Under the pieces are notes generated by a model that saw only the letters and a program-made list of their open reading frames with translations, had not been told where the DNA came from and did no database searches. The position numbers were made by a program, and so were the translations under genes. Below, piece after piece: positions 2,066-20,697 of a stretch of 37,109 bases of DNA. The DNA lies in the NCBI GenBank assembly GCA_018240985.1, contig JAFEER010000090.1:1-37109 (forward strand), in the 5' to 3' direction. This stretch comes from Pseudomonadota bacterium (GTDB taxonomy: Bacteria; Pseudomonadota; Gammaproteobacteria; Burkholderiales; Burkholderiaceae_C). Numbering within the stretch: the first letter of the stretch is position 1; every line of letters starts with the position of its first letter.

Positions 2066-2069
2066 CGCC

Positions 2070-2852: not shown

Positions 2853-2854
2853 AC

Positions 2855-3352: not shown

Positions 3353-4019
3353 AACGTCGCGCTCGCAGCGCATCCTCTGGCTGCTCGAAGAGCTGGCCGT
3401 GCCGTATGACATCCGCCTCTACCGGCGCGATCCGGTGACCCGGCTGGCGCCTGCGGCGCTGAAAAAAATCCACCCGCTGGGTAAATCTCCGGTCGTGACC
3501 GATGGCGATACCGTGGTGGCCGAATCGGGCGCCATCATCGAATACTTGGTGGAGCGCTTCGGCGCCCAGGCACCGGCCGATCTGGCCCATCTGGAGCCCG
3601 CGCGGGGCACGCCCGAGCACCGCCAGTGCCGCTACTGGATGCACTTCGCCGAGGGCTCGCTGATGAATTGGCTGGTGATGCAACTGGTGTTCGACACGAT
3701 CCCGCGCCAGCCCATGCCGTTTTTTGTGCGCCCGATCGCTCGCGCCCTGTGCGGCAAGGTGCAGCAAAAACTCATTCACCCGAATGTGCAAACCGCCCTG
3801 GCCTTCATGGAGGCACACCTGGCGCAGCACCCGTGGTTTGCGGGCGACTACCTGAGCATGGCCGATTTTCAAATGAGCTTTGCCGTCGAAGCCGCCCTGG
3901 CACGCGGCGGCAACGAAGGCGCATGGCCGCACTTGCTGGCCTACCGTCAGCGCATGCAGGCGCGACCAGCCTATCGGCGCGCTCTGGACAAGGGCGGGCC
4001 GGTGTTGATGCAAGCCTGA
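3330..4019 (+). CDS. Glutathione S-transferase
   Basis: A 229-residue protein with the two-domain GST layout. The N-terminal thioredoxin-like domain (about residues 1-80) carries SRSQRILWLLEELAVPYD, the cis-proline region GKSPVVTDGD and the glutathione-binding VAESGAIIEYL. The C-terminal helical domain holds FAGDYLSMADFQMSF, the usual N-capping box. It conjugates or removes glutathione in the cytoplasm; the acceptor is unknown. The N-terminal catalytic residue would be Ser or Thr near position 9-11 rather than Cys. The gene starts inside the NTF2-like gene and ends 58 bases before the photolyase start, consistent with one stress operon. Confidence 0.9.
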   Translation: MLTVHHLETSRSQRILWLLEELAVPYDIRLYRRDPVTRLAPAALKKIHPLGKSPVVTDGDTVVAESGAIIEYLVERFGAQAPADLAHLEPARGTPEHRQCRYWMHFAEGSLMNWLVMQLVFDTIPRQPMPFFVRPIARALCGKVQQKLIHPNVQTALAFMEAHLAQHPWFAGDYLSMADFQMSFAVEAALARGGNEGAWPHLLAYRQRMQARPAYRRALDKGGPVLMQA

Positions 4020-4077
4020 AGCCAGCCCAAACAAGATGACAGCCCCAACCCACACCGACCCACGAGAGGCGTCTGTC

Positions 4078-5553: not shown

Positions 5554-6498
5554 ATGGAATTACGACACCTCCGTTGCTTTTTGGCTGTCGCTGAAGAGCT
5601 GCATTTTGCGCGCGCCGCTGAGCGGCTGCATATCGAGCAGTCGCCCCTGTCGCGAGCCATCAAGGAACTCGAAGAAGAGTTGGGGGTTGCGCTATTCGCC
5701 CGCACCACCCGCAGCACACGATTGACCCGCGCCGGCACACTGTTTTTGGAGCACGTGCGCCGCGTATTCACAGCCTTGGAACAAGCGCGCGATAGCGTGA
5801 AAGCGGCGGCAAGCGGCTTTCACGGACAGTTGCGCGTGGCTTTGTCGGACGGCATCACGCCTTCGCGCTTACCGGCCGTGCTGGCGCTATGCCGCCAGGA
5901 AGAGCCCGAAGTTGAAATACGGTTCTTCGAAATACCGCTGTCACAGCAGATCAAGGGGTTGCACGACGACCTGTACGACGTGGGCTTCGCGCAGTCCGAT
6001 GAGGTGGGCGATGGCGTTGTCGCCTTGCCTGTCTGGAGCGATGCGATCATGGTGGCGGTACCTGCGCGGCACCCGCTGCTGATCCACAAGCGCATTCCGC
6101 TGGATGAACTACTGCGATATCCGCTTGTCCTGTGCGATCCACAAGTCTGTGAAGGCCCTGCCAGACACTTCGATCGGATACTGCGCCGAGCAGACACGGA
6201 GCCGTTGGTCGCAGAACGAGTCGCTTCGTGTGATCTGATGATGACACTGGTATCTGCTGGCTTCGCGCTTGGGCTGGCTGGCGCCTCGCGTATTGCTGCC
6301 AGCCATGAAACGGGCGTGGTGGCCCGGCCGCTGGCGATACGCGTGCCGCCACTGACGACCTACTTGTTGCACGCCGAAGGCGAGCCGTCTGATGTGCTTG
6401 CGCGCTTCATTGAGCGTGTGCAGGCCATCGATTCACCGGAACACCCTATGCCCAAGCCGGGCAAACATTCCGATTCGCTGGAGGAACCCGCGTCATGA
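5554..6498 (+). CDS. LysR-family transcriptional regulator of the conjugation module
   Basis: A 314-residue protein with an N-terminal winged helix-turn-helix: MELRHLRCFLAVAEELHFAR, then AAERLHIEQSPLSRAIKELE, the standard LysR recognition region (about residues 17-40). A linker helix is followed by a two-lobed effector domain from about residue 90. LysR genes at this position, just before eexN and traG, are a regular part of Tn4371-type ICEs, where the regulator is thought to act on the transfer genes. It faces the same way as the operon and overlaps eexN by ATGA, so it may autoregulate. The ligand is unknown. The gene starts only 12 bases after photolyase with no obvious promoter, so it may be read from upstream or from within the phr end. 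Confidence 0.9.
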   Translation: MELRHLRCFLAVAEELHFARAAERLHIEQSPLSRAIKELEEELGVALFARTTRSTRLTRAGTLFLEHVRRVFTALEQARDSVKAAASGFHGQLRVALSDGITPSRLPAVLALCRQEEPEVEIRFFEIPLSQQIKGLHDDLYDVGFAQSDEVGDGVVALPVWSDAIMVAVPARHPLLIHKRIPLDELLRYPLVLCDPQVCEGPARHFDRILRRADTEPLVAERVASCDLMMTLVSAGFALGLAGASRIAASHETGVVARPLAIRVPPLTTYLLHAEGEPSDVLARFIERVQAIDSPEHPMPKPGKHSDSLEEPAS

Positions 6499-7009: not shown

Positions 7010-9022
7010 ATGCAAGGGACGAACGTGCTGTTCGGTCAGATCGCCGTGGTCTTCGGCATCGTGATCGCCGGCGTGTGGGGCGCCACACAATGGACAGCCG
7101 CCGCTCTTGGCTATCAACTACGCTTGGGCTCGCCCTGGTTCGATCTTCTTGGCACGCCGGTCTACCACCCGTGGAAGCTGTTTGAGTGGTGGTTCGTTTT
7201 CGATGCCTACGCGCCGCGCGTGTTCGACACCGGCGGCGCCATCGCGGGCGGCAGTGGGCTGCTGGCAGTGGTGGTCGCCATCGGCATGTCGGTCTGGCGC
7301 TCGCGACAGTCGCGCCTGGTCACAACCTACGGCTCTGCGCGATGGGCCAACGCGCATGACATTCGCAAGGCGGGCCTCACGCAGCCGTCCGGCGTGTTCC
7401 TGGGCCAGCACGATTGCCAGTACCTGCGCCATGAAGGCCCGGAACACGTCCTGACTTTTGCGCCCACGCGCTCGGGCAAGGGCGTGGGCCTGGTGGTGCC
7501 GACGCTGCTGTCCTGGCCAGCCTCGGCCGTCATCCACGACATCAAGGGCGAGAACTGGCAGATCACCGCCGGCTGGCGCTCGCGCTTCTCGCATTGCCTA
7601 CTGTTCAACCCGACAGATAACCGGTCGGCTGCTTACAACCCGCTGCTGGAAGTGCGGCGCGGCGCGCATGAAGTGCGCGACGTGCAAAACATCGCGGACA
7701 TTCTGGTCGATCCCGAAGGCGCGCTGGAGAAGCGCAACCATTGGGAGAAGACCAGTCACGCGCTGCTGGTCGGGGCCATCCTGCATGTGCTCTACGCGGG
7801 CGAGGACAAGACGCTGCGCGGTGTCGCCAACTTCCTCAGCGACCCGGCCAGCCCGTTCGAGCTGACCTTGCACCGGATGATGACCACGCCGCATCTCGTG
7901 AATGCGGAAGGTGGTGGCCCGCATCCGGTGGTGGCATCCGCCGCACGCGAGGTCTTGAACAAGAGCGACAACGAGCGTTCCGGCGTGTTGAGCACCGCCA
8001 TGTCGTTCCTCGGCCTGTACCGCGACCCCACGGTGGCCGAAGTCACGTCGCGCTGCGACTGGCGCATCGCCGACCTGATCGCGGCCGAGCATCCGGTGTC
8101 GCTGTATCTGGTGGTGCCGCCTTCGGACATTTCGCGGACGAAGCCGCTCATCCGCTTGCTTCTCAACCAGATCGGCCGGCGCCTCACCGAATCGCTTGAT
8201 GGCTCCGACGGCATCGCGCGCCGCCACAAGCTGCTGCTGATGCTCGACGAGTTTCCGGCGCTGGGGCGATTGGACTTCTTCGAGACGGCCCTGGCCTTTA
8301 TGGCCGGCTACGGCATTCGTAGCTTCCTCATCGCCCAAAGCCTGAACCAGATCGACAAGGCATATGGGCAGAACCATTCCATTCTCGACAACTGCCATGT
8401 GCGCGTGACGTTTGCGACGAACGACGAGCGCACGGCCAAACGCATTTCCGAGACGCTGGGCACCGCGACCGAGCTGCGCGCGCAGCGCAACTATGCCGGC
8501 CACAGGCTCGCGCCGTGGCTGGGGCACCTCATGGTGTCGCGTCAGGAGACGGCTCGCCCGCTGCTGACGCCGGGCGAGGTGATGCAGCTTCCGCCTGACG
8601 AAGCCGTGGTGATGGTGTCCAGCGTGGCGCCGATCAAGGCGAAGAAGCTGCGCTACTACGCGGACAGCAATTTCAAGCGCCGCGTGTTGCCACCGCCTGC
8701 ACTGGCGGACGGGCAGTACGCAGATGCGCCGCCATCGCGGCCTAACGACTGGAGCGGCCTGGCAATTCCCGCCGTGCCCGTCGCGCCTGCGGCCGATACT
8801 GCCGAAGGCTTCGGCGCATCGACCGACGACGGCGGCCCGCGCCGTCAGCCCGAACTCTCGGAAACCGTCGCTTACGCCCCCGAGCTGGCCGCGCCCGCAG
8901 CCGACCTCGGGCTGCTCGATGACGACGACCTGCCGCTTCCTCTCCCACGTCAGCTTGACCCAGTCATGCAGCGCACGGTCCGGCTGGCATCGCTGAACCC
9001 CAACGACGGAATCGAGCTATGA
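7010..9022 (+). CDS. traG: TraG/VirD4-family type IV coupling protein
   Basis: A 670-residue inner-membrane ATPase that delivers the relaxase-DNA complex to the mating channel. Two hydrophobic N-terminal segments (about residues 8-28 and 78-94) flank a periplasmic loop. The ATPase domain has Walker A APTRSGKGVG (about residue 151) and Walker B LLLMLDEFPALGRL (about residue 405-418). Other VirD4 marks are VIHDIKGENW and FLIAQSLNQID. The C-terminal 130 residues are Pro/Ala-rich and acidic, probably a flexible substrate-contact tail. The start has a GGAGG-like site. It overlaps the following CopG-like gene by ATGA. No relaxase gene is in view, so its substrate must be encoded elsewhere or be lost. 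Confidence 0.95.
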   Translation: MQGTNVLFGQIAVVFGIVIAGVWGATQWTAAALGYQLRLGSPWFDLLGTPVYHPWKLFEWWFVFDAYAPRVFDTGGAIAGGSGLLAVVVAIGMSVWRSRQSRLVTTYGSARWANAHDIRKAGLTQPSGVFLGQHDCQYLRHEGPEHVLTFAPTRSGKGVGLVVPTLLSWPASAVIHDIKGENWQITAGWRSRFSHCLLFNPTDNRSAAYNPLLEVRRGAHEVRDVQNIADILVDPEGALEKRNHWEKTSHALLVGAILHVLYAGEDKTLRGVANFLSDPASPFELTLHRMMTTPHLVNAEGGGPHPVVASAAREVLNKSDNERSGVLSTAMSFLGLYRDPTVAEVTSRCDWRIADLIAAEHPVSLYLVVPPSDISRTKPLIRLLLNQIGRRLTESLDGSDGIARRHKLLLMLDEFPALGRLDFFETALAFMAGYGIRSFLIAQSLNQIDKAYGQNHSILDNCHVRVTFATNDERTAKRISETLGTATELRAQRNYAGHRLAPWLGHLMVSRQETARPLLTPGEVMQLPPDEAVVMVSSVAPIKAKKLRYYADSNFKRRVLPPPALADGQYADAPPSRPNDWSGLAIPAVPVAPAADTAEGFGASTDDGGPRRQPELSETVAYAPELAAPAADLGLLDDDDLPLPLPRQLDPVMQRTVRLASLNPNDGIEL

Positions 9023-9465
9023 GCCACTATCGCCTGAACCTCTTTATCCAGCGTGAGCACGCCCAGCGGCTCGATGAACTGGCCGCCAAGAAAGGCGTGT
9101 CCAAGTCCAGCATCGTCGCCGCTGCCTTGGCGTCCTGGCTGTCGCCGGACGCAGCCGACCAGCGTGAGGCGGCCATCGCCAAGCGCCTGGATCGCCTGTC
9201 GCGCCAGGCCGAGCGCCTGGAGCGCGACCAGAACATCGCCATCGAGACGTTGGCGCTGTTCGTTCGCTACTACCTCACGGTGAGCACGCCGGTTCCCGAG
9301 GCGCACCAAGACGCGGCCCGCGCCCAGGGCAAGGCGCGCTTCGAGCAGTTCGTTGAACAGTTGGGCCGCCACCTGCTGCGGGGGCGCAGCCTGGTACGCG
9401 ACGTGGTAGAGGAACTGCACGCCGACCCCGCGCGCCTGGACGAAGCGCAGGAGCGTGCGTCATGA
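9019..9465 (+). CDS. CopG-like ribbon-helix-helix protein
   Basis: A 148-residue protein. The N-terminal part, RLNLFIQREHAQRLDELAAK followed by KGVSKSSIVAAALASWLS, is a ribbon-helix-helix pattern: one beta strand then two helices (residues 1-45). It is followed by a charged, likely coiled-coil stretch, RLDRLSRQAERLERDQNIA (about residues 58-80). Proteins of this type sit between traG and trbB in Tn4371-type elements. By analogy they may bind the transfer origin or regulate the operon, but this is not established. The gene overlaps traG upstream and trbB downstream by four bases each. Confidence 0.85.
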   Translation: MSHYRLNLFIQREHAQRLDELAAKKGVSKSSIVAAALASWLSPDAADQREAAIAKRLDRLSRQAERLERDQNIAIETLALFVRYYLTVSTPVPEAHQDAARAQGKARFEQFVEQLGRHLLRGRSLVRDVVEELHADPARLDEAQERAS

Positions 9466-10529
9466 CCGCGCCGCAGTCCGCAAACGCGGCCTCGCTTGAC
9501 CGCCGAATCCAGATGCTGCGCACGGCAATGGGGCCGCTGATCGCCACCGCGCTTGAAGACCCCGACGTGGTGGAAATCATGCTCAACCCCGATCGCACCC
9601 TTTGGGTGGATCGGCTGTCGTCGGGCCGCGCGCCGATGGGCGTGGAAATGCCTGAGGCGGACGGCGAGCGGATCATCCGCCTCGTCGCCGCCCACGTCGG
9701 CGCGGAAGTCCATCGCGGCCAGCCGCTGCTGTCGGCCGAGCTGCCTGAAACAGGCGAACGCTTCGAGGGCATCTTGCCGCCGGCTGCGCCGGGGCCGGCC
9801 TTCGCGCTGCGCAAGCGCGCCATCGGCGTGATTCCGTTGGAGCGGTACGTCGTGGATGGAATGATGACCGCCGCCCAGGCGGACTTTCTCGTTCGGGCCG
9901 TGCGCGAGCGGCAGAACGTCTTGATCGCCGGCGCCACCAGCAGCGGAAAGACCACGCTCGCCAATGCGCTGCTGGCCGAGATCGCCGCCACGGGCGACCG
10001 CGTGCTGGTGCTCGAAGACACGGTGGAGTTGCAATGCGCCGCCCGCGACCACGTTCCGCTGCGCACACGCGCAGGCGTGGTGTCCATGACAGAACTGGTG
10101 CGCTCGTCCATGCGCCTGCGGCCTGATCGCGTCGTCGTCGGCGAGGTGCGCGGCGCCGAGGCGCTGGATCTCATCAAGGTGTGGGGCACGGGCCATCCCG
10201 GCGGCATCGCCACCATCCATGCCGGCTCCGCTCTGGGTGCGCTGCTGCGCCTGGAGCAACTGATTCTCGAAGTGGCCGTGAACCCGCCCCGTGCGCTGAT
10301 CGCCGAGGCGGTCAACGTGGTGATCCACATCGCCGGACGCGGGCGCAAGCGCCGCATCGAGAGCATCGTCCTCGTCGTCGGCTTCGACGGCGCGGGCTAC
10401 CGATTGGCGGATTGGGAGGCGGATGCGATGGACGCGCCGTTTCCCGAGCTGTCGCCAAACCCCGATGCCGCACCCGCTGCGGCGACTTCCTCATCCCCGT
10501 CCCTCAATCCCTCTGGAGAACTGCCATGA
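9462..10529 (+). CDS. trbB: Conjugal transfer ATPase TrbB (VirB11 family)
   Basis: A 355-residue hexameric secretion ATPase that powers assembly and DNA transfer of the type IV secretion system from the cytoplasmic side. Walker A GATSSGKTT is near residue 157, the Asp box VLVLEDTVELQ follows, Walker B lies in RVVVGEVRGAEALDL, and the His box is TGHPGGIATIHAGSA. The N-terminal domain includes DPDVVEIMLNPDRTLWVDR, typical of VirB11 proteins. The C-terminal 40 residues are Pro/Ala/Ser-rich and variable. The start overlaps the CopG-like stop and the end overlaps trbC by ATGA. Confidence 0.96.
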   Translation: MTAPQSANAASLDRRIQMLRTAMGPLIATALEDPDVVEIMLNPDRTLWVDRLSSGRAPMGVEMPEADGERIIRLVAAHVGAEVHRGQPLLSAELPETGERFEGILPPAAPGPAFALRKRAIGVIPLERYVVDGMMTAAQADFLVRAVRERQNVLIAGATSSGKTTLANALLAEIAATGDRVLVLEDTVELQCAARDHVPLRTRAGVVSMTELVRSSMRLRPDRVVVGEVRGAEALDLIKVWGTGHPGGIATIHAGSALGALLRLEQLILEVAVNPPRALIAEAVNVVIHIAGRGRKRRIESIVLVVGFDGAGYRLADWEADAMDAPFPELSPNPDAAPAAATSSSPSLNPSGELP

Positions 10530-11196: not shown

Positions 11197-13671
11197 ATGC
11201 TGAACCTTGCCGAATACCGCCAGCGGCCCGCGCTGCTGGCCGACTGGCTGCCCTGGGCCGGGCTGATCGCGCCGGGCGTCGTCTTGAACAAGGACGGCAG
11301 TTTCCAGCGCACGGCCCGGTTTCGCGGGCCTGATCTCGACAGCGCCACGCAAGGCGAGCTGATCGCCACGTCGGCCCGCTTGAACAACGCGCTGCGCCGG
11401 CTGGGTTCGGGCTGGGCGTTGTTCATCGAAGCCGAGCGCCGCGCCGCTGCCGAATATCCGCACTCGGAGTTCCCAGAACCGCTGTCCTGGCTGGTGGACG
11501 AGGAACGCCGCGCAAACTTCGAGGAATCGGGCAACCACTTCGAGAGCTGGTATCACCTGACGCTGCAATACCTGCCTGCGGAGGAGTCCCGCGCGCGTGC
11601 GGCGGGACTTCTCTACGAGAACCGTCCCACTGAAGGCGTGGACTGGCGCGAGCGCCTGACGGCCTTCGTGGCGGAGACGGATCGCGTCTTTGACCTGCTC
11701 GATGGCGTGATGCCGGAAATCGCCTGGCTCGATGACAGCCAGACGCTGACCTACCTGCACGCCACCATCTCGACGCGGCGCTATTCGCTGGCGGTGCCCG
11801 AGGTGCCGTTCCACATCGACGCGCTGCTGGCCGATTCCATGCTGGTCGGCGGCCTGGCGCCGATGCTTGGCGAGCAGCACCTGCGTGTGTTGTCGGTGCG
11901 GGGCTTCCCGACCTCGACCTGGCCGGGAATTCTGGATGACCTCAACCGCCTGGGCTTTGCCTACCGCTGGAGTACGCGCTTTCTGTGCCTCGACAAAGCC
12001 GAAGCGGAACGGGAGTTGGGACGCCTGCGCCGCCAGTGGTTCGCCAAGCGCAAGAACGTCATCGCGCTGCTGCGCGAAACGATCTTCCAGCAGGAAAGCC
12101 CGCTGGTCGATACCGACGCCAGCAACAAGGCGGCGGACGCCGATGCCGCCTTGCAGGAGCTGGGCAGCGATCAAGTCGCCTTCGGTTATCTCACCGCCAC
12201 GGTGACGGTGCTCGATGCCGACCCCGCCGTGGCCGACGAAAAGCTGCGCAGGGTGGAGCGCGTCATCCAGGGCCGCGGCTTTGTGACGATCCCAGAGACG
12301 CTGAATGCCGTGGATGCGTGGCTGTCCTCGCTTCCCGGCAATGCTTATGCCAACGTCCGCCAGCCCATCGTCTCGACGCTGAACCTGGCGCACATGATGC
12401 CGGTGTCTGCCGTGTGGGCCGGGCCGGAGAAGAACGACCACCTGGGCGGCCCGCCGCTGATCGTCACGCGCACCGATGGTGTCACACCGTTCCGGCTGGT
12501 GACGCACATCGGCGACGTGGGCCACACGCTGGTCGCGGGGCCGACCGGCATGGGCAAGTCGGTCTTGCTCGCCACGCTGGCGATGCAGTTCCGCCGCTAT
12601 CGCGGCTCGCGCATCTTCGCTTTTGATATGGGGCGCTCGATGCGCGCCACGGTTCTCGGGCTGGGCGGCGAGTACTACGACCTGGGCACGGATGGAGAAA
12701 TCGCCTTCCAGCCCTTGGCCCGCATCGACCGCGAGGGCTACCGCACCTGGGCCGCCGAATGGATCGAAGGCCGCTTGCTGCATGAGGGCGTGGCGGTCGG
12801 CCCGGATGAGAAGGCTGCCATCTGGTCGGCGCTGGGAAGCCTCGCCGGTGCGCCGGTGGAGCAGCGCACGATGACGGGGCTTTCCGTGCTGCTGCAATCG
12901 AACACGCTGCGCCAGGCGCTGTCGCCCTATGTGCTGGGCGGCGCGCACGGCAAGCTGCTGGACGCCGACCATGACCGGCTGGAGAGCGCCGATGCGAGGC
13001 CAGCCGACGTGCAGTGCTTCGAGATGGAGGAGCTGATGCACAGCAAGGCCGCCGTCATGGCCGTGCTGCATTACCTCTTTGCGCGCTTCGATGAACGCTT
13101 CGATGGGGCGCCCACGCTGCTGATCCTCGATGAGGCGTGGCTGTTTCTCGATGACCCGGTGTTTGCCGCGCGCATCCGGCAATGGCTCAAGACGCTGCGC
13201 AAACGAAACGTCAGTGTCATCTTCGCCACGCAGAGCCTGGCTGACATCAAGGATTCGAGCATCGCGCCCGCGATCATCGAAAGCTGCGCGAGCCGCATCT
13301 TCCTGCCGAACCCGCAGGCCACCGAGCCGCAGATTCGCACGATCTATGAGGGCTTCGGCCTCAACAGGCGGCAGATCGAAATCGTCGCCACGGCAGTTCC
13401 GAAGCGCGACTACTACTACCAATCCCGCCTCGGCAATCGCCTGTTCGACCTCGACCTGGGGCCGGCGACGCTGGCCTTCGCGGGCGCTTCCACGCCGCAA
13501 GACCAGCGCGACATGGACCGAGTGCTGCTGGACGGCGGCGTGCCCGGCTTCGTGGGCGCCTGGCTGCGCCATCGCGGCCTCGATTGGGCGGCTGACCTGC
13601 TGCCCTCGTTCCTCGGGACTTCGCCGGCTCCTTCCGGCTTCGCAAACCTTCTACAGGAGAACCATCCATGA
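11197..13671 (+). CDS. trbE: Conjugal transfer ATPase TrbE (VirB4 family)
   Basis: An 824-residue VirB4-type ATPase, the largest energy component of the mating channel, on the cytoplasmic face. The N-terminal CagE/TrbE domain (about residues 170-400) precedes the nucleotide-binding domain with Walker A GPTGMGKS (about residue 448) and Walker B LLILDEAWLF (about residue 641). The motif IFATQSLADIKDS follows. Length is normal and the frame is intact, so there is no sign of decay. The stop overlaps trbJ by ATGA. Confidence 0.96.
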   Translation: MLNLAEYRQRPALLADWLPWAGLIAPGVVLNKDGSFQRTARFRGPDLDSATQGELIATSARLNNALRRLGSGWALFIEAERRAAAEYPHSEFPEPLSWLVDEERRANFEESGNHFESWYHLTLQYLPAEESRARAAGLLYENRPTEGVDWRERLTAFVAETDRVFDLLDGVMPEIAWLDDSQTLTYLHATISTRRYSLAVPEVPFHIDALLADSMLVGGLAPMLGEQHLRVLSVRGFPTSTWPGILDDLNRLGFAYRWSTRFLCLDKAEAERELGRLRRQWFAKRKNVIALLRETIFQQESPLVDTDASNKAADADAALQELGSDQVAFGYLTATVTVLDADPAVADEKLRRVERVIQGRGFVTIPETLNAVDAWLSSLPGNAYANVRQPIVSTLNLAHMMPVSAVWAGPEKNDHLGGPPLIVTRTDGVTPFRLVTHIGDVGHTLVAGPTGMGKSVLLATLAMQFRRYRGSRIFAFDMGRSMRATVLGLGGEYYDLGTDGEIAFQPLARIDREGYRTWAAEWIEGRLLHEGVAVGPDEKAAIWSALGSLAGAPVEQRTMTGLSVLLQSNTLRQALSPYVLGGAHGKLLDADHDRLESADARPADVQCFEMEELMHSKAAVMAVLHYLFARFDERFDGAPTLLILDEAWLFLDDPVFAARIRQWLKTLRKRNVSVIFATQSLADIKDSSIAPAIIESCASRIFLPNPQATEPQIRTIYEGFGLNRRQIEIVATAVPKRDYYYQSRLGNRLFDLDLGPATLAFAGASTPQDQRDMDRVLLDGGVPGFVGAWLRHRGLDWAADLLPSFLGTSPAPSGFANLLQENHP

Positions 13672-14435: not shown

Positions 14436-14573
14436 ATGCGATGCGTCCTCGCCCTATCTGTTCCGGTGCTGGTCGCGCTGCTGGCCGACCTGCCGCCGAT
14501 CCCGCCGAGCTTCGATGAGCCGGCGAATGGCGTAGCGCCGGAACCGCCCATTGAACCGGAGGGCACGCCATGA
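14436..14573 (+). CDS. Small ORF in the TrbK position (45 aa, no lipobox)
   Basis: ATG 14436 is preceded by GGGAGG and the stop overlaps the trbL ATG by ATGA, so it looks translated and coupled. The 45 residues begin with a hydrophobic run (RCVLALSVPVLVALLADL) and continue as a Pro/Glu-rich tail. IncP-type systems encode the entry-exclusion lipoprotein TrbK between trbJ and trbL. Here the only Cys is residue 3 and there is no lipobox, so this is either a worn-down TrbK or a different small membrane peptide. Exclusion is probably handled by EexN instead. Too short for family assignment. Confidence 0.6.
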   Translation: MRCVLALSVPVLVALLADLPPIPPSFDEPANGVAPEPPIEPEGTP

Positions 14574-15955
14574 ATGACGTGACCATCATCGACCAGTTCC
14601 TCAACACCTTCGCCACCTACATCGACTCGGGTTTTGGGCTGTTGCGGGGCGAAGTGGCGTTCCTGACCGCCACGCTGATCGTCATCGACATGACGATCGC
14701 CGGGCTGTATTGGGCCATGAGCCACGCCACCGGCCAGGGCGAGGACGTGATCGCCAAGCTGATCCGCAAGGTGCTCTATGTCGGTGCCTTCGCCTACATC
14801 ATCGGCAACTTCAACTGGCTGGCCGGCATCGTGTTCCGCTCATTCGCCGGGCTCGGCATCATGGCCACTGGCTCGGCCATCACGATGGAGAATTTCTTGC
14901 AGCCGGGCCGGCTCGCCAAAACCGGCATCGACGCCGGAGCACCGATCTTGAAGCAGATCGGTGACATGGCCGGGTTCCCCGAGGTGTTCGCCAATCTCGA
15001 TCCCATCGTGGTGATGTTCCTCGCCTGGCTGGTTGTGGTCTTGTGCTTCTTTGTGCTGGCGATCCAACTGTTCATTACGCTGATCGAGTTCAAGCTGACG
15101 ACATTGGCTGGCTTCGTGCTGGTGCCGTTCGCACTGTGGAACAAGACCAGCTTCCTCGCCGAGAAGGTGCTGGGCAACGTCGTGTCCGCCGGCATCAAAG
15201 TGCTGGTACTGGCTGTGATCGTCGGTATCGGCTCGGGCCTGTTCGCTCAGTTCCAAGTCCATCCCGCCGAGCAGTCCATCGACCATGCGCTGGTCATCAT
15301 GCTGGCCTCGCTCACCTTGTTGGCGCTCGGGATCTTCGGCCCCGGCATCGCCACGGGCCTGGTGTCCGGTGCGCCGCAGCTTGGCGCGGGCGCGATGGCC
15401 GGTGCTGCGGTCGGCGCTGTCGGCACCGGCGTTGCCGTTGGTGCCGCCGCGACCGGCGTGGGCGGCGCGGTCATGGCCGGGGCGCGCATGGCGCCGGCCG
15501 CCGCCAAGCTGGCTGGCGGCAGTGCGCGTGCCGCCACATCGGCGGCCAGCAGCGCCAAGTCGGCGTTCCAGGCCGGTTCCACCGCAGCAGGCGGTGGTGT
15601 AAGGGGGGTGATGGCCGGCCTGGGTAACGTTGCCAAGACCGGCGCACAGTCCACCGGGCGCGCGGCTGCATCCCGCGCTTCCGCTGCCGGGCAGCGCGTG
15701 GCGGCACCGTTCCGCGCTGGCTGGAACGGCCCGGTCGCTGACGAAGGCGCGGCAGCTGGTGGAGCTTGGGCATCCGGCCATGCCGCCGCAAGCGAAGCTG
15801 CTTCCGGCGCAGCCAACGCACAGCCCGCTTGGGCCAAGCGGCTGCATCGCCGCCAGCAACTCACCCACGCCGCGACCGCCGCCGCCCACACGCTGCGCGG
15901 TGGCGACGGTGGTGGCTCCGGGCAAGGCCCGAGCCTACGCGGTACCGACGAATAA
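14570..15955 (+). CDS. trbL: P-type conjugative transfer protein TrbL (VirB6 family)
   Basis: A 461-residue polytopic inner-membrane channel protein. About six hydrophobic segments lie in the first 280 residues, including LDPIVVMFLAWLVVVLCFF and the family segment FKLTTLAGFVLVPFALWNKT. The C-terminal 190 residues are Ala/Gly-rich and low in complexity, as in other TrbL proteins, and end in a basic tail. VirB6/TrbL proteins form the inner-membrane passage for DNA. Start overlaps the small ORF; trbF follows 24 bases later with an AAGGAG ribosome site. Confidence 0.94.
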   Translation: MNDVTIIDQFLNTFATYIDSGFGLLRGEVAFLTATLIVIDMTIAGLYWAMSHATGQGEDVIAKLIRKVLYVGAFAYIIGNFNWLAGIVFRSFAGLGIMATGSAITMENFLQPGRLAKTGIDAGAPILKQIGDMAGFPEVFANLDPIVVMFLAWLVVVLCFFVLAIQLFITLIEFKLTTLAGFVLVPFALWNKTSFLAEKVLGNVVSAGIKVLVLAVIVGIGSGLFAQFQVHPAEQSIDHALVIMLASLTLLALGIFGPGIATGLVSGAPQLGAGAMAGAAVGAVGTGVAVGAAATGVGGAVMAGARMAPAAAKLAGGSARAATSAASSAKSAFQAGSTAAGGGVRGVMAGLGNVAKTGAQSTGRAAASRASAAGQRVAAPFRAGWNGPVADEGAAAGGAWASGHAAASEAASGAANAQPAWAKRLHRRQQLTHAATAAAHTLRGGDGGGSGQGPSLRGTDE

Positions 15956-15979: not shown

Positions 15980-16684
15980 ATGCGATTCAAACGACCGCAA
16001 GTGCGCTATGCCGACACGCCGCAGCCTGCCACGCCGTACCAAGCTGCCGGCCAGGTGTGGGACGAGCGTATCGGCTCGCCGCGTGTGCAGGCGAAGAACT
16101 GGCGGCTGATAGCCTTCGGTTGCCTGACGCTCGCGCTGCTGATGGCCGGCGGCCTGGTCTGGCGCTCGGCGCAATCCATCGTGACGCCCTATGTCGTGGA
16201 GGTGGACAACTCGGGCCAGGTGCGCGCGGTTGGCGAAGCCGCCACGCCGTACCGGCCCAGCGATGCACAGATCGCCTACCACCTGGGCCGCTTCATCGGC
16301 CTGGTGCGCTCGCTGTCCATCGACCCCATCGTGGTGCGGCAGAACTGGCTCGATGCCTACGACTACACCACCGACAAGGGCGCCGTGGTGCTCAACGAGT
16401 ACGCCCGCGTGAACAACCCGTTTGCGCGCATCGGCAAGGAGTCGGTGACGGTGCAGATCACCAGCGTGACCCGCGCCAGCGACACGTCATTCAACGTGCG
16501 CTGGACGGAAACGCGCTTCGTCAACGGCGCGCTAGACCGCACCGAGCGCTGGAACGCCGTGGTTTCCATCGTGCAGCAGACCCCGCGCACCGAACAGCGC
16601 CTGCGCAAGAACCCCTTGGGCATCTACGTCAACGGACTGTCGTGGAGCCGCGAACTGGAAGGAAACGAAGGAGCAAAACCATGA
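15980..16684 (+). CDS. trbF: Conjugal transfer protein TrbF (VirB8 family)
   Basis: A 234-residue bitopic inner-membrane protein. A cytoplasmic N-terminus (NTPYQAAGQVWDERIG-like, here TPYQAAGQVWDERIGSPRVQ) precedes one transmembrane segment (about residues 41-60). The periplasmic VirB8 domain follows, with GRFIGLVRSLSIDPIVVRQN and the conserved end RKNPLGIYVNGLSWSREL. VirB8/TrbF is the scaffold joining inner- and outer-membrane parts. ATG 15980 has AAGGAG nine bases upstream. Overlaps trbG by ATGA. Confidence 0.94.
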   Translation: MRFKRPQVRYADTPQPATPYQAAGQVWDERIGSPRVQAKNWRLIAFGCLTLALLMAGGLVWRSAQSIVTPYVVEVDNSGQVRAVGEAATPYRPSDAQIAYHLGRFIGLVRSLSIDPIVVRQNWLDAYDYTTDKGAVVLNEYARVNNPFARIGKESVTVQITSVTRASDTSFNVRWTETRFVNGALDRTERWNAVVSIVQQTPRTEQRLRKNPLGIYVNGLSWSRELEGNEGAKP

Positions 16685-17673
16685 ATGCAGTTTTCCGTAA
16701 ATCCGCGGTGCCGGTGATCCTGTTGGCATCGACTGTCCTGTTCGCGGGCTGCGCCACGCAGGGCAAGCCACCGCCGGTGATCCCGCTCGATGAGCCGGTA
16801 CAGGCCCATCCGTTGCCCGAGGCGCCGAAGCCGGTGGAGGTCGTGACCGTGCCTGAGGTGTTGCCGATGCCAGCGCAGATGAAGCCTGTGCCGGATTCCA
16901 AGCCTACGGCGGAACCCACCGATGAAACCGTGCGCGTGGCCCGCGCCAATGCCGAGGCGCGTGTCGCGCCCACGCGCGAGGGCTACGTCAACGCGATTCA
17001 GGTCTGGCCTTTCACCGATGGCGCGTTGTATCAGGTCTATGCGGCCGTGGGCCGCGTGACCGTGGTTACGCTGCAGCCGGGCGAAGAATTGGTAACGGTC
17101 GCCGCTGGCGACACGGTGCGCTGGATCGTGGGCGACACGTCCAGCGGCAGCGGTGCCGACCTGCGCGTCAACGTGATGGTCAAGCCGATCCGCTCCGGCC
17201 TCAAGACCAATCTGGTTATCACGACCAGCCGGCGGACCTACCTGCTGGAGCTGACATCGACGGAGAAAGCATGGATGGCTTCGGTGTCCTGGGAGTATCC
17301 GAAGGATAGGATGCTGGCCTTGCAGCGCCAGGCGCAAGCGGCCAGCGCCGCCGCGCCTGTCGATACCGGCCTGTCACTGGAGAAGATCCGCTTCCGCTAT
17401 GCGGTCAGCGGCAGCAATCCGTCGTGGAAACCACTGCGGGCCTTCGATGACGGTGAGAAGGTCTATATCCAGTTCCCCGCCGGCATCGCGCAAGGCGAGC
17501 TGCCGCCGCTGTTCGTCATCGGCGCGCAGGGCGACGGGCAACTCGTCAACTACCGTTTCCGCCCGCCGTACTACATCGTGGATCGGCTGTTCGGTGCGGC
17601 CGAGCTGCGCCTGGGCGGGGACAAGGGCGATGTGGTGCGGATCGAACGCACGGACGGCACGCGGAGGAATTGA
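16681..17673 (+). CDS. trbG: P-type conjugative transfer protein TrbG (VirB9 family)
   Basis: A 330-residue outer-membrane complex protein. ATG 16681 overlaps the trbF stop. It carries a signal peptide with lipobox-like FAGC (Cys24), so it may be lipidated and do part of the job of a separate VirB7 lipoprotein. A Pro-rich linker (residues 30-90) is followed by the VirB9 domain with IQVWPFTDGALYQVY, PGEELVTVAAGDTVRW and the C-terminal FRPPYYIVDRLF. VirB9/TrbG binds VirB10/TrbI in the outer-membrane core. The end is three bases before the trbI start. Confidence 0.94.
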   Translation: MNAVFRKSAVPVILLASTVLFAGCATQGKPPPVIPLDEPVQAHPLPEAPKPVEVVTVPEVLPMPAQMKPVPDSKPTAEPTDETVRVARANAEARVAPTREGYVNAIQVWPFTDGALYQVYAAVGRVTVVTLQPGEELVTVAAGDTVRWIVGDTSSGSGADLRVNVMVKPIRSGLKTNLVITTSRRTYLLELTSTEKAWMASVSWEYPKDRMLALQRQAQAASAAAPVDTGLSLEKIRFRYAVSGSNPSWKPLRAFDDGEKVYIQFPAGIAQGELPPLFVIGAQGDGQLVNYRFRPPYYIVDRLFGAAELRLGGDKGDVVRIERTDGTRRN

Positions 17674-17675
17674 CC

Positions 17676-18947
17676 ATGAGCCAGGACGACAGCCCCGACC
17701 GTGCCGCGCCGCAGGCGGGCAAGGTCGCGCCCGAGGCGGTGGCGCTGCGCGCGCAGCCGCGCCCGGTCACACGCCTGAACCGGCGCACGCTGGCGATGCT
17801 GATGGGCGGCCTGTCGGTCGCCGTGCTCGGGGCCACGATCTGGTCGCTGCAACCGCACCGGCGCAGCGCCGGCGAGCAGACCGAGCTTTACAACGTCGAT
17901 CGCGTCTCCAAGTCCGAAGGGCTGGACGGCTTGCCTTCGGACTATTCCAAACTGCCGCCGAAGGTGCCCGAGCTGGGGCCGCCGCTGCCCGGCGATCTTG
18001 GGCCGGCCATCGTGAAGTCGCAGCAGCCCGTGACGCCCACCTATGCGCCGCCGGGCCATGACCCCGAGGATGCCTTGCGCAAGGAAGCGGACGCGGCGGC
18101 AGCCTCGGCGGTGTTCTTTCGCTCGGGCCAGCAGGGCAAGGCTGCCGCGCCTGCCGCAGCCCAAGTCGCTGCGGCCGCGCCTGCCAGCACCTTGGCGGGC
18201 TTCGATCCGTTGGCGGCCGGGCCTGCCTCGACCGCGGCCCAGCCTGCCGACCCGACTGCGACGCAGAACCGTCAAGACCAGAAAAAGGCTTTCCTGAAAG
18301 GCGGCGCTACGGAGACCCGTAATTCCGGCAATCTGCAAATGCCGGCTTCGCCGTATCAGGTGATGGCCGGGACGGTGATTGCGGGAGCGCTGGTCACGGG
18401 CATCAAGTCGGACTTGCCGGGCGACGTGATCGCCACGGTGACGGAGCCGGTTTACGACACGGCCACGGGCAAGTTACTGCTGATCCCGCAGGGATCGCGC
18501 ATCTTGGGCAAATACAACAGCCATGTCAGCTACGGGCAGAGCCGCGTCCAGGTCGTGTGGAACCGGGTCATCCTGCCGGACACGTCCTCGCTGACGCTCG
18601 ACAACCTTGTCGGCACCGACCCGGCCGGCTACGCCGGCTTGGAAGACAACGTGGACTGGCACTGGAAGCGCATCGTAGCCGGTGCGGTGCTGACTACGCT
18701 GCTGGGCGTGGGCGCCGAGCTGGCCGCGCCGGAGAACCGCCAGGACGGCAACCGCATTGTCATCGCCGGGCGCGACAGCGCGCAGGACAGCATCAATCAG
18801 GTCGGGCAGGAGATGACCCGGCGCAACATGAACATCCAGCCGACGCTGACCACACGGCCGGGCTTGCCGGTGCGGATCATCGTCAACCGCGACCTGGTGC
18901 TGCGGCCTTATCAGCCGCTTTTCTTCAACAGGGGGGCGATGCGATGA
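17676..18947 (+). CDS. trbI: Conjugal transfer protein TrbI (VirB10 family)
   Basis: A 423-residue protein that spans both membranes and forms the core channel. ATG 17676 has GGAGG eight bases upstream; an in-frame TTG six bases earlier is less likely. Cytoplasmic N-terminus, one transmembrane segment (LAMLMGGLSVAVLGATIWSL, about residues 37-56), a Pro/Ala-rich periplasmic stretch, then the VirB10 domain with VMAGTVIAGALVTGIKSDLP, LLIPQGSRILGKY and VQVVWNRVILPD. The final residues RLVL-like VLRPYQPLFF match the family end. Overlaps the DUF2274 gene by ATGA. Confidence 0.95.
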   Translation: MSQDDSPDRAAPQAGKVAPEAVALRAQPRPVTRLNRRTLAMLMGGLSVAVLGATIWSLQPHRRSAGEQTELYNVDRVSKSEGLDGLPSDYSKLPPKVPELGPPLPGDLGPAIVKSQQPVTPTYAPPGHDPEDALRKEADAAAASAVFFRSGQQGKAAAPAAAQVAAAAPASTLAGFDPLAAGPASTAAQPADPTATQNRQDQKKAFLKGGATETRNSGNLQMPASPYQVMAGTVIAGALVTGIKSDLPGDVIATVTEPVYDTATGKLLLIPQGSRILGKYNSHVSYGQSRVQVVWNRVILPDTSSLTLDNLVGTDPAGYAGLEDNVDWHWKRIVAGAVLTTLLGVGAELAAPENRQDGNRIVIAGRDSAQDSINQVGQEMTRRNMNIQPTLTTRPGLPVRIIVNRDLVLRPYQPLFFNRGAMR

Positions 18948-19186
18948 CCACGGGCAAGAAGCTGCGGCTCGGGCCGCTGCCCAAGACAGAGAGCACGAAG
19001 ATTACGTTTGCGTGTCCGGGCGTCCTTAAGGCTGACCTCGACCGTTACGCTGCGGCGTATGGGCAGGCGTATGGTGAAGCGGTGGACGTGGCCGCGTTGA
19101 TTCCGCATATGCTTGAAGCCTTCATGGCTGGGGATCGGGGGTTCAGGCGCAGACAGGCCAAGAACGAAAAAGCCGCCCCTGTGTGA
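18944..19186 (+). CDS. DUF2274 domain-containing protein
   Basis: An 80-residue protein with KLRLGPLPKTESTKITFACP, then a helical stretch DLDRYAAAYGQAYGEAVDVA, then LIPHMLEAFMAGDRGF: the DUF2274 pattern. This gene is the regular last gene of Tn4371-type trb operons. Function is unknown; the shape suggests a small DNA-binding (RHH-like) or regulatory protein. Its last codons and stop lie inside a strong hairpin that also ends the opposing tRNA transcript, so its C-terminus is partly shaped by a terminator. Confidence 0.9.
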   Translation: MTTGKKLRLGPLPKTESTKITFACPGVLKADLDRYAAAYGQAYGEAVDVAALIPHMLEAFMAGDRGFRRRQAKNEKAAPV

Positions 19187-19199
19187 ACAGGGACGGCTC
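19171..19199. terminator. Bidirectional Rho-independent terminator shared by trb operon and tRNA-Leu
   Basis: Stem AGCCG-C-CCCTGT pairs with ACAGGG-A-CGGCT with one C/A mismatch and a four-base loop GTGA (19183-19186) containing the DUF2274 stop codon. Read on the minus strand the stem is followed directly by TTTTTC, a classic terminator for the tRNA-Leu transcript. Read on the plus strand it is followed only by CTTAATT, a weaker signal for the trb operon. Confidence 0.8.
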
Positions 19200-19204
19200 T
19201 TAAT

Positions 19205-19521
19205 TGGTGCCCGAGGTCGGACTCGAACCGACAAGCCTTGCGGCGGAGGATTTTCTTCCCACTTCGGCTTTCGCCGCCGACCTGCACAGGGCAGGGCGTT
19301 CGTGGTCTGGAGCACGCCTTCACCATAGCCTTTCAGCCGTAGGTGCCCGCCGTCTGCTCTCTACACCTTCCCTGGTCTTTCGACCTGGGCTTGGCTCGGC
19401 ATTAGCTCGGACTTGCGTCCAGGGCCTTCACCGAGTTTGACGGGCTTCACCTCAAGGATTTCTCCAAGAGGGCTCAAATTTGGTCTGAGTCCTCTGCGTC
19501 TACCAATTCCACCACTCGGGC
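19205..19521 (-). tRNA. tRNA-Leu(CAA) interrupted by a group I intron
   Basis: Exon 1 is 19487-19521 and exon 2 is 19205-19254 on the minus strand. Joined, they give a full tRNA-Leu with encoded CCA. Acceptor stem GCCCGAG/CTCGGGC has seven pairs, anticodon stem GAGGA/TCCTC five pairs. The loop CTC+AAAA has anticodon CAA. The long variable arm is GCC-GCAA-GGC, and the T arm is GTCGG-TTCGAGT-CCGAC. All stems are intact, so it should work after splicing. It decodes UUG. The intron sits right after the first anticodon base. A possible -10 box TAAAAT lies on the minus strand at 19530-19535. The gene stands about 190 bases from a broken second tRNA-Leu. Open reading frames across it are not genes. 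Confidence 0.9.
19255..19486 (-). ncRNA. Group I self-splicing intron (Azoarcus-like, IC3 type) in tRNA-Leu
   Basis: 232 nt, ending in the required terminal G. The core closely matches my memory of the Azoarcus tRNA-Ile intron. GCCGAGCCAAGC forms the P4 region; GAAGGTGTAGAGAGCAGACG (around 19350-19368) and ATGGTGAAGGCGTGCTCCAG (around 19307-19326) hold the two P7 strands. P7 pairs GAGCA with TGCTC, a compensated change from the Azoarcus GACTA/TAGTC. P1: exon CTC plus intron AGA pair with the guide TTTGAG. P10: guide TTT pairs with the start of exon 2 (AAAA). The 5' splice site has a C-G pair instead of the usual U-G wobble. No homing endonuclease is encoded. Confidence 0.9.
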
Positions 19522-19707
19522 ATGACGCGATTTTACTTTACTACTCTCTACTACTCACTTGGAGCCAGCCTGTGCTGCGCTGACTCCTAGTTGGCTCCTA
19601 GCTCAAAAAGCAAACTTTCCGGCCAAGCTCCCACTTCCACCCCAAACCCTTGCGCGATGCGGGTTGACGAACAATGAACTCAAGCTAACTATGGGTACAA
19701 GTCCCTA
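19522..19707. other. AT-richer non-coding end of the element between the two tRNA-Leu sequences
   Basis: 186 bases without a gene, lower in GC than its surroundings. It holds the direct repeat TACTACTC (19539-19558 area), an inverted repeat GGAGCCA (19561-19567) / TGGCTCC (19592-19598), and the direct repeat CTCCTAG twice around 19584-19600. It also holds the octamer CTCAAAAA at 19602-19609, an inverted copy of TTTTTGAG at 19708-19715. This looks like the end region of an integrated element with possible integrase-arm sites; binding is not demonstrated. Confidence 0.5.
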
Positions 19708-19715
19708 TTTTTGAG
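19708..19715. other. Putative attachment-site core TTTTTGAG
   Basis: The octamer is the complement of the anticodon loop CTCAAAA(A) of the truncated tRNA-Leu. To its right the sequence is host tRNA; to its left it is unrelated. From memory, Tn4371-type elements use T-rich octamers such as TTTTTCAT as crossover cores, so this is a plausible right attachment site. The matching left site is not in the window. Confidence 0.55.
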
Positions 19716-19747
19716 TCCCCTGCGTCTACCAATTTCACCACCCGGGC
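19709..19747 (-). pseudogene. Truncated tRNA-Leu(CAA), 5' half only
   Basis: On the minus strand this reads a normal tRNA-Leu 5' half: acceptor strand GCCCGGG, D-arm GGTGAAATTGGTAGACGC, and anticodon stem GGGGA followed by the loop CTCAAAA. It then stops matching: the expected TCCCC strand, variable arm, T arm and CCA are missing. Its acceptor strand differs from the intron-bearing tRNA-Leu next door (GCCCGAG), so it is a remnant of another gene, most simply the original host copy. It lies back-to-back with cysM. Confidence 0.85.
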
Positions 19748-19791
19748 AGGCGCAAAAAGCGAAGTCGCAAATTATGGCACAGTATCGCCAT

Positions 19792-20697
19792 ATGAAGACC
19801 TACCCCACCATCGAAGACACGATAGGCCGCACCCCCCTGGTGGCCCTGCAGCGCATTGGCGCGCCGGACAACGCGGCGCGAGGCAATGTGGTTTTGGGCA
19901 AGCTGGAGGGCAACAACCCCGCGGGTTCCGTCAAGGACAGGCCGGCGCTGTCGATGATCCGGCGCGCCGAGGAGCGTGGCGAGATCAAGCCCGGCGACAC
20001 CCTGATCGAGGCCACCTCGGGCAACACCGGCATCGCACTTGCGATGGCGGCGGCCATCAGGGGCTACCGCATGGTGCTGATCATGCCGGAGGACTTGTCG
20101 GTGGAGCGCGCCCAGACCATGAAGGCCTTTGGCGCCGAGCTCATCCTTACGCCCAAGAGCGGCGGCATGGAATACGCGCGCGATCTGGCCGACCAGATGG
20201 TGGCCCAGGACAAGGGCGTGGTGCTGGATCAGTTTGCCAACCCTGACAACCCGCGCATCCACTACGAAACCACGGGCCCCGAGCTGTGGGAGCAGACCGA
20301 TGGGCGCATCACCCACTTCGTGAGCGCCATGGGCACGACGGGCACCATCACCGGGGTGGCACGCTATCTGCGTGAGAAGAATCCCGCCATCCGCATCGTC
20401 GGCGCCCAGCCGCGCGAGGGCTCGCGCATTCCCGGCATCCGCAAGTGGCCCGAGGAGTACCAGCCCAAGATCTACGAACCCAATCTGGTCGATGAGCTGG
20501 TGCTGGTGAGCCAGGACGACGCCGAGGACATGGCGCGGCGCATGGCGCGCGAGGAGGGCATCTTCGGCGGCATCTCGGCGGCTGGGGCCTGCTGGGTGGC
20601 GCAGCAGATTGCGGCGCAGGAGCACAACGCAACCATCGTCTTCGTGGTCTGCGACCGCGGGGATCGTTACCTGTCCACCGGTGTGTTTCCGGTTTGA
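19792..20697 (+). CDS. cysM: Cysteine synthase B (O-acetylserine sulfhydrylase)
   Basis: A 301-residue PLP enzyme that makes cysteine from O-acetylserine and sulfide or thiosulfate in the cytoplasm. The PLP lysine is Lys48 in PAGSVKDRP; the phosphate/substrate loop TSGNTG is at residues 75-80. GTTGTITGVARYLRE and EGIFGGISAAGA are also typical. CysM rather than CysK is supported by DTIGRTPLVALQRI and the overall length. ATG 19792 is chosen; ATG 19774 in frame would add MAQYRH. No strong ribosome site is visible, and the 5' region abuts the broken tRNA-Leu, so the promoter may lie in that tRNA remnant. Confidence 0.95.
   Translation: MKTYPTIEDTIGRTPLVALQRIGAPDNAARGNVVLGKLEGNNPAGSVKDRPALSMIRRAEERGEIKPGDTLIEATSGNTGIALAMAAAIRGYRMVLIMPEDLSVERAQTMKAFGAELILTPKSGGMEYARDLADQMVAQDKGVVLDQFANPDNPRIHYETTGPELWEQTDGRITHFVSAMGTTGTITGVARYLREKNPAIRIVGAQPREGSRIPGIRKWPEEYQPKIYEPNLVDELVLVSQDDAEDMARRMAREEGIFGGISAAGACWVAQQIAAQEHNATIVFVVCDRGDRYLSTGVFPV

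Follow-up and report, generated by a model that had tools for sequence, protein, structure and literature searches.

A contig of 37,109 nucleotides (G000:C293, analysed whole and referred to here as the window) contains one end, the right one, of an integrative and conjugative element (ICE) that is Tn4371-like. This element cuts the tRNA-Leu(CAA) gene of its host and carries a replacement tRNA gene, which an intron probably hides from the element's own integrase. The integration site, the broken halves, the empty site, the anticodon-matched replacement, and the absence of the core from this replacement are established by the anatomy of the loci. Protection from the element's own integrase is a strong inference and is untested. 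In vivo splicing, decoding, and integrase avoidance as the reason for keeping the intron or C32T are inferred, without splicing, charging, or recombination data.

In the proposed mechanism, a tyrosine integrase would recombine at the 7-bp core CTCAAAA, the anticodon loop of tRNA-Leu(CAA). Because the shared stretch is too short for rebuilding the tRNA, integration would cut the host gene in two. The element's own complete tRNA-Leu(CAA), located just inside the right end, would compensate for the broken gene. The carried copy has the orientation of the broken half, from which it is inferred that read-through from the host tRNA promoter could transcribe it. A group I intron between C34 and A35 of the carried copy splits the core into CTC|AAAA; the copy would no longer be an attB at the DNA level, and splicing would restore the tRNA at the RNA level. 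In alphaproteobacterial relatives, C32T would take the place of the intron.

The usual view of group I introns is that they are selfish or neutral. If the mechanism is true, such an intron has a selected use, in that the integrase target is gone from the DNA and the RNA product is intact. It would also explain the use of important tRNA anticodon loops as landing sites for elements, the patchy spread of introned tRNA-Leu genes, and element-borne tRNAs missed in annotation.

Right end of the element and its junctions

The broken host tRNA-Leu(CAA) is present as a 5' half on the minus strand (19709..19747), with foreign sequence past the loop CTCAAAA; its intact counterpart is found in the congeneric genomes G001 and G005. 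The core (19709..19715, minus strand) is common to attL, attR, and the empty site. A spacer forming the inner attR arm (19522..19708 by sequence position) separates the broken half from the carried tRNA, and both genes have the same orientation. In relatives, the carried tRNA starts approximately 180-240 bp past the start of the broken half. The carried tRNA-Leu(CAA) consists of a 5' exon ending in CTC (19487..19521), a 232-nt group I intron (19255..19486), and a 3' exon, AAAATCC...GGGCACCA (19205..19254), all on the minus strand. With introns allowed, ARAGORN placed a tRNA-Leu(caa) at c[19205,19521], interrupted after base 35 by a 232-nt intron; the standard run with no intron setting reported no tRNA in the window. 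A search for terminator-like sites found a hairpin and T-run directly behind the carried tRNA (19168..19201, minus strand), one of two such sites in the searched stretch against a shuffle mean of 1.1.

The conjugation genes lie on the plus strand. TrbI (17670..18947; Pfam PF03743, E 4e-60) is the final mating-pair gene ahead of the element end. The others encode TrbF/VirB8-like (15980..16684; PF04335) and TrbL/VirB6-like (14570..15955; PF04610) proteins, a TrbE/VirB4-like ATPase (11197..13671; PF03135, PF19044), a TrbB-like ATPase (9462..10529; PF00437), a TraG-type coupling protein (7010..9022; PF02534), and a LysR-type regulator that is TraR-like by position (5554..6498; PF00126/PF03466). 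On the other side, a cysM-like gene (19771..20697, plus strand; PF00291) belongs to the host chromosome outside the element. The earlier note had described the 5' half ending in CTCAAAA, a complete tRNA-Leu(CAA) about 190 bases away split CTC|AAAA by a group I intron, and a conjugation module beyond. All three descriptions hold, the first in coordinates and loop, the second by ARAGORN and Rfam Intron_gpI, and the third by Pfam. Genes for an MFS transporter, a short-chain dehydrogenase, a GST, and a DNA photolyase occupy window positions 84-5541. A related block near an integrase remnant occurs in G001 (3128-3139 kb), so the window genes are probably cargo.

The missing tRNA-Leu(CAA) 3' half was located on another contig of the same genome (G000:C299:293-342). 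The 5'-half junction also occurs in four congeneric genomes (G002, G003, G004, and G006); three of them, G002 being the exception, also show the 3'-half junction. In these four genomes and in G000, the 5'-half side reads GGGGACTCAAAAATAGGGAC. The 3'-half side reads TCAATCTCAAAATCCCCC in G000, G003, G004, and G006, and the intact site of G001 and G005 reads GGGGACTCAAAATCCCCC. Comparison of these sequences gives CTCAAAA, the anticodon loop, as the shared core. As the earlier note had anticipated for relatives lacking the element, G001 and G005 have a single intact intronless tRNA-Leu(CAA) directly beside cysM; the cysM neighbour in G002, G003, G004, and G006 is the broken half. In the complete genomes G003 and G004, the two halves are 50 kb apart (1373691 and 1423885) and 82 kb apart (2106604 and 2189018), respectively, with trb genes and an integrase between them. 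The tyrosine integrase adjoins the 3' half, and relatives of TrbI, TrbF, TrbL, TrbJ, TrbE, TrbB, and TraG lie behind the carried tRNA. The claim that the element cuts the host tRNA-Leu in the anticodon loop and carries a replacement is thus supported by the junctions, the empty site, and the matching anticodon. No refuting case was seen, that is, neither element-free relatives with both the introned and the broken copy nor an integrase using an unrelated site.

Two traits of Tn4371-like ICEs are present: a tra/trb module with TrbI at the end opposite the integrase (the window and the CAA elements of G003 and G004), and, in relatives, a terminal tyrosine integrase of the MAKIKLTK type (Pfam PF00589). 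A trait of tRNA-dependent integration, a short core in a tRNA gene with neither junction rebuilding the tRNA, is met as well. The direct repeats of Tn4371, TTTTTCAT, are not met; because the core CTCAAAA / TTTTGAG differs from them, the element was filed as Tn4371-like and not as Tn4371 proper, and relatives with a T-tract attL form a separate class. Identity to the CAA-type integrase of G003 is 94% for the CAA-type integrase of G383, 89% for that of G004, and 65-67% for UAA-type integrases. The earlier note had expected an integrase gene together with the missing half. This was borne out for the half and for G003 and G004; no integrase was detected in the window's own assembly, G000, at E <= 1e-50, and the G000 copy may for this reason be immobile. 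By eye, C299 departs from G003 just upstream of the expected int start, at the int ribosome-binding site, and the element in G000 may have lost int. The point of divergence (L009 1-130) has what we take to be a resemblance to the end of an insertion sequence.

A parallel arrangement exists at tRNA-Leu(UAA) in congeners. An introned tRNA-Leu(UAA) lies behind a broken intronless tRNA-Leu(UAA) half in G001, G003, and G005, and trb genes follow it in G003 and G005. An integrase and the UAA 3' half are found at the opposite end in G001, G003, G385, and G383, the last of which is Variovorax sp. Root473 and the same genome as G446 (loci identical to L230 and L180). A further element of G001, at 3137 kb, was considered as a test case of an element without a tRNA and was dropped, with no trb match at that locus.

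Related elements and possible dependence of the host on the carried tRNA

An alignment of eight integrases was used to survey genome_contigs, and the best 80 of at least 214 relatives were kept. Their attL sites comprised 22 tRNA-Leu(UAA) and 14 tRNA-Leu(CAA) 3' halves, 42 T-tracts, and two other sites. In 33 of the 36 tRNA-Leu elements, the broken half is accompanied by an altered replacement tRNA with the same anticodon; a group I intron interrupts the core in 29 of these replacements, and C32T breaks it in the four that have no intron. The introned copy lies in the same genome beside the broken half of its own anticodon in 19/22 UAA elements and 10/14 CAA elements, and an intact core was found in none of the 33 altered copies. 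The three UAA misses (G434, G443, and G447) all come from MAGs that gave no match to the right-end junction pattern at <=1 mismatch. The loop of the broken half has decayed in G452. For G453, G454, and G455, the exons were read by hand, and ARAGORN had misjoined or misnamed the copy.

The four intronless CAA copies (G456, G459, G460, and G463) start 180-200 bp past the broken half and read TTCAAAA for CTCAAAA in the loop; the hosts are Rhizobiaceae, Mesorhizobium kowhaii and two MAGs. G459 has a further TTCAAAA copy elsewhere in its genome, and G453 contains a fifth TTCAAAA (C32T) pair, outside the 4/14. Resident tRNA-Leu(CAA) genes can have the TTCAAAA loop too, as in Pseudomonas sp. Q2-TVG4-2, so it may have been taken up and not made by the element.

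Among these best 80 of at least 214 relatives, the integrase and the copy are on one contig in 16/33 cases, judged from contigs of equal length. Nine are UAA cases (G438, G439, G440, G441, G445, G446, G449, G451, and G454) and seven are CAA cases (G446, G457, G461, G465, G466, G467, and G468). The remaining 17 comprise G453, in which the lengths differ by 100 bases, and 16 on different contigs, including all four C32T copies; not being on one contig, these 17 are tied to the element by junction and anticodon, without continuity. A TrbI relative lies within ~1.4 kb behind the copy in 19/33 (UAA 11/19, introned CAA 8/10, C32T 0/4). The earlier note's expectation of such tRNAs near the trb end was therefore met by an altered tRNA-Leu of matching anticodon in most elements and a TrbI-like gene behind many copies. 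Because the elements are related to one another, their counts cannot be treated as independent trials.

The genomes were scanned with a covariance model of the intron core. A first set comprised 38 loci in 37 genomes, with the two other-site elements included. The model matched 29/37 genomes of this set and, under stricter filters, 7/42 T-tract genomes (again within the best 80 of at least 214); G467 belongs to both sets. In the T-tract genomes G467, G502, and G503, an introned CAA copy lies beside a broken half and represents a separate CAA element. A second introned CAA copy without a half is also present in G467, and a CAU-type intron in G503. The other matches are introned UAA copies without a half (G473, G497, and G500) and a CAU-type intron (G477). 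In Sphingobium phenoxybenzoativorans, the right-end junction is at a non-tRNA site, with an introned tRNA ~160 bp inside and a TrbI relative behind it; the attL, on another contig, is also at a non-tRNA site. Since this non-tRNA junction contains the introned tRNA, the tRNA travels with the element, and the candidate explanation that the intron is a resident host allele is ruled out for ICE copies. Halfless introned copies in other genomes may be resident. No introned tRNA was found with the intron-core model in G450, the other non-tRNA case. Bordetella ansorpii (L282 and L234) seems to have a T-tract-type element within the end of a CAA-type element, beside the introned tRNA.

Further leucine tRNAs were searched by loop in 37 genomes at <=1 mismatch. 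Beyond the half, with or without the carried exon, no further loop of the broken anticodon was found in these genomes, except in G432 (a MAG in which another UAA gene lies on a contig of 4 kb), G451 (a UAA gene in a tRNA array), and the G455 relic described below. A tRNA-family search of G003 gave 48 matches above and six below the cut-off, and ARAGORN was run on nine long matches and four of the six weak ones. The intronless leucine tRNAs found were only CAG (two), UAG, and GAG; among these 13 matches and the family search, no UAA or CAA genes other than the intron-bearing copies were found. UUA is decoded by tRNA-Leu(UAA) alone. In vivo splicing is therefore implied if UUA codons are used, and a host such as G003 would rely on an element-borne ribozyme for reading UUA.

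The intron as protection or as passenger

Group I introns in tRNA-Leu(UAA) genes are inserted after base 34. The window intron matched Rfam Intron_gpI (RF00028) at 19307-19496 with E 3.6e-5 and 28.9 bits, under the gathering score of 50 bits, and nothing was reported in the window at gathering thresholds. When 24 related intron cores were aligned, double-sided compensatory changes were seen in 18/31 pairs of the core helices, which we take to be P3-P8. The precursor folds with P1 (z = -2.7). The terminal base of the intron is G, and the final base of the 5' exon is C in CAA copies and T in UAA copies. The P1 splice-site pair in CAA copies would thus be C-G against the usual U.G, which counts against protection by a working intron.

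A similar device occurs in a prophage-like stretch of ~16 kb (G079:C101:33600-49420; L312, L134), which has split a tRNA-Leu(UAA) gene so that one half flanks it on each side, and which has an introned tRNA-Leu(UAA) immediately within its boundary. One of its proteins matches a virion family, and its integrase is 26% identical to the ICE integrase over 229 aa. A scan of viral_contigs with this integrase gave one relative, with no tRNA in the stretch, which starts at the integrase and leaves the attachment side outside. In Gordonia phage Daredevil (NC_048021; L316 3875-4186), ARAGORN with introns allowed found a tRNA-Lys(TTT) with a 238-nt group I intron, ~570 bp from the integrase gene and with an attP-like loop-and-stem string in between; the integrase is 20% identical to the ICE integrase. 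According to the part of the source available, Daredevil targets tRNA-Lys-TTT without rebuilding it, lacks a tRNA of its own, and forms clear plaques (PMC10865867). The hidden introned tRNA-Lys alters the published statement that this phage has no tRNA of its own. The clear plaques speak against a working introned tRNA there, and it may not work.

Introned tRNA-Leu genes without a broken half count against a protective role. An intron query matched 28/399 genomes of the order, ICE copies and CAU-type introns included, and 16 UAA and two CAA loci of the order sample lacked the half; the prophage copy (L109) was left out of this count, and the pattern used can miss decayed halves. A carried-type tRNA-Leu(CAA) with an intact core lies 388 bp past a decayed CAA attR on G455:C5, a relic with no integrase or trb match in 12 kb. 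It may reflect relaxed selection after loss of the element, or be an exception. Similarity to the ICE spacer was tried and rejected as a marker of domesticated copies, as only 4/29 upstream stretches matched and true element ends were missed. The matches were L100 and L279, without a broken half, and the element ends L282 and L273 (only 22 bases in L273); similarity was absent in 25/29, including the alphaproteobacterial-type element ends L010, L272, and L274. One halfless introned tRNA-Leu(UAA) (L126 9530-9843, G256) has an ICE-like upstream spacer (78.6% over 56 bp) and is possibly a domesticated ICE tRNA.

The intron tree, which has several long branches, leaves room for another reading. 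All 17 ICE-CAA introns fall into a single clade (96/88) nested among UAA introns; having one origin, they count as one event, and from their place in the tree the CAA copy would most likely have arisen from an introned UAA gene by U34C, leaving the C-G pair. The ICE-UAA introns are not one clade and are intermixed with halfless UAA introns, so the capture of an already introned gene is possible. The replacement would then be real and the intron a passenger with no effect on the integrase. We give this explanation a small but real chance; the halfless introned tRNA-Leu(UAA) genes of several genomes and the TTCAAAA loops of resident tRNA-Leu(CAA) genes fit it as well. The same tree sets alphaproteobacterial-type introns (three ICE copies and one plasmid copy) apart as a separate clade (95/84), and the separate origin of the UAA introns among them argues against a mere passenger. 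So do the coincidence of the intron position with the core, the breaking of the core by C32T in 4/4 intronless alphaproteobacterial CAA elements with the G453 pair as a fifth, the lack of an intact core in all 33 named carried copies from the best 80 of at least 214 relatives, and the recurrence of the arrangement in a prophage and a Gordonia phage with distant integrases.

It is improbable that the intron protects mainly against other elements, anticodon nucleases, or recombination between the carried and host tRNAs. An archaeal study, as far as its available text goes, suggests that an element-brought intron blocks invasion by further elements (PMC3293823), and the UAA loop is also the target of a prophage with a distant integrase. 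However, the carried anticodon, and hence the core, matches the element's own target in 33/33 copies (best 80 of at least 214 relatives), and the spliced RNA, being without the intron, would have no shield from nucleases that cut mature tRNA. The two genes are both tRNA-Leu(CAA), ~190 bp apart and in the same orientation, which would fit the alternative offered in the earlier note, ancestral neighbours of which one has decayed. This alternative is virtually ruled out: G001 and G005 have a single intact gene at the empty site, the 3' half in G003 and G004 is separated from its partner by 50 or 82 kb and adjoins an integrase, and the arrangement recurs elsewhere, both at tRNA-Leu(UAA) in other genomes and at a site outside any tRNA. 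Protection of the carried copy from the element's own integrase remains the preferred explanation.

Known systems and similar loci elsewhere

The arrangement resembles that of Tn4371-family ICEs, in particular ICE-KKS102, with the integrase at one end and the trb genes at the other (PMC11448139, PMC6563109, PMC9960961, each available in part). The main target of ICE-KKS102 is given as tRNA-Leu in the accessible part of a review (PMC9960961), and its published direct repeat is GATTTTAAG in the portions available (PMC9960961, PMC11448139). Read on the opposite strand, this repeat is CTTAAAATC, which corresponds to the tRNA-Leu(UAA) loop plus TC. The three ICE texts (PMC11448139, PMC6563109, PMC9960961) do not contain the word intron, and their available portions name no carried tRNA. 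T-tract members of the Tn4371 family are not in a tRNA gene, unlike the tRNA-Leu elements described here.

The tRNA-dependent lysogeny of actinobacteriophages (Guerrero-Bustamante and Hatfull, 2024, PMC10865867) is comparable as far as the partial text goes, but concerns phages and not conjugative elements; the word intron appears in that text only once, in a reference title. For phages without their tRNA, integrants at secondary sites only are reported there. Bacterial tRNA-Leu(UAA) group I introns (PMC4033280) are also in the anticodon loop, whereas the intron here is in an element-borne tRNA-Leu(CAA) with a C-G splice-site pair. The part of that source at hand treats such introns as tRNA gene diversity and not as part of an integration system (PMC4033280). 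In archaea, tRNA introns and split genes remove the integrase target, as here (Randau and Soll, cited in PMC4390854 and PMC4033280; PMC3293823), and the element itself is suggested to bring the intron (PMC3293823); judging from excerpts of these sources, the archaeal introns are in a restored host gene, without the separate ribozyme-introned replacement gene seen here. The earlier note's view that protection by an intron is undescribed must therefore be narrowed. Precedents exist in the portions seen of PMC10865867, PMC3293823, and PMC4390854, but a carried replacement tRNA with a ribozyme intron did not turn up among the matches listed for the open-licence literature. Among these matches, no title or abstract joined tRNA group I introns with ICE integration, and a search for Tn4371 with group I intron returned no papers; an earlier mention in the KKS102 paper (PMC3416211) is not excluded.

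Protection of this kind could be a general rule for elements that cut an anticodon loop without being able to rebuild it, solved repeatedly by an intron, a loop base, or an altered flanking stem. On this view, protected copies or their domesticated remains would account for many introned tRNA-Leu genes of proteobacteria, and the missing tRNA of Daredevil would be its introned tRNA-Lys, overlooked because tRNA searches that do not allow introns miss such genes. We regard this extension as evenly balanced between right and wrong. In BrutonGaster, the loop of the phage tRNA is unchanged, but its flanking pair is not that of attP. In Mollymur and OneUp, the phage's own tRNA keeps the attP loop string ACTCATAAT unchanged, which counts against the protective reading.

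Several further loci were noted. A query with the introned tRNA of the window matched 1283 plasmid records, mostly of Enterobacteriaceae, and the junction was examined in pCTX-M3 only. In this plasmid (NC_004464; L010 2831-3293), an introned tRNA-Leu(UAA) lies close to aac(3)-IId and follows, at a distance of 164 bp, a junction resembling the attR of alphaproteobacterial UAA elements; the locus looks like the right end of an old ICE. On the conjugative Bradyrhizobium plasmid CP094621 (L012 8004-9630), an introned tRNA-Leu(UAA) lies ~0.8 kb from a trbI-like match, with no broken half seen at that locus. A stretch of G240 within 2.7 kb (L123 7377-10019) combines a short integrase-like gene with two tRNA-Leu(CAA) genes, one intact and the other introned and on the opposite strand. 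An introned tRNA-Leu(UAA) is also present in the jumbo Agrobacterium phage Atu_ph07 (L317 2003-2364).
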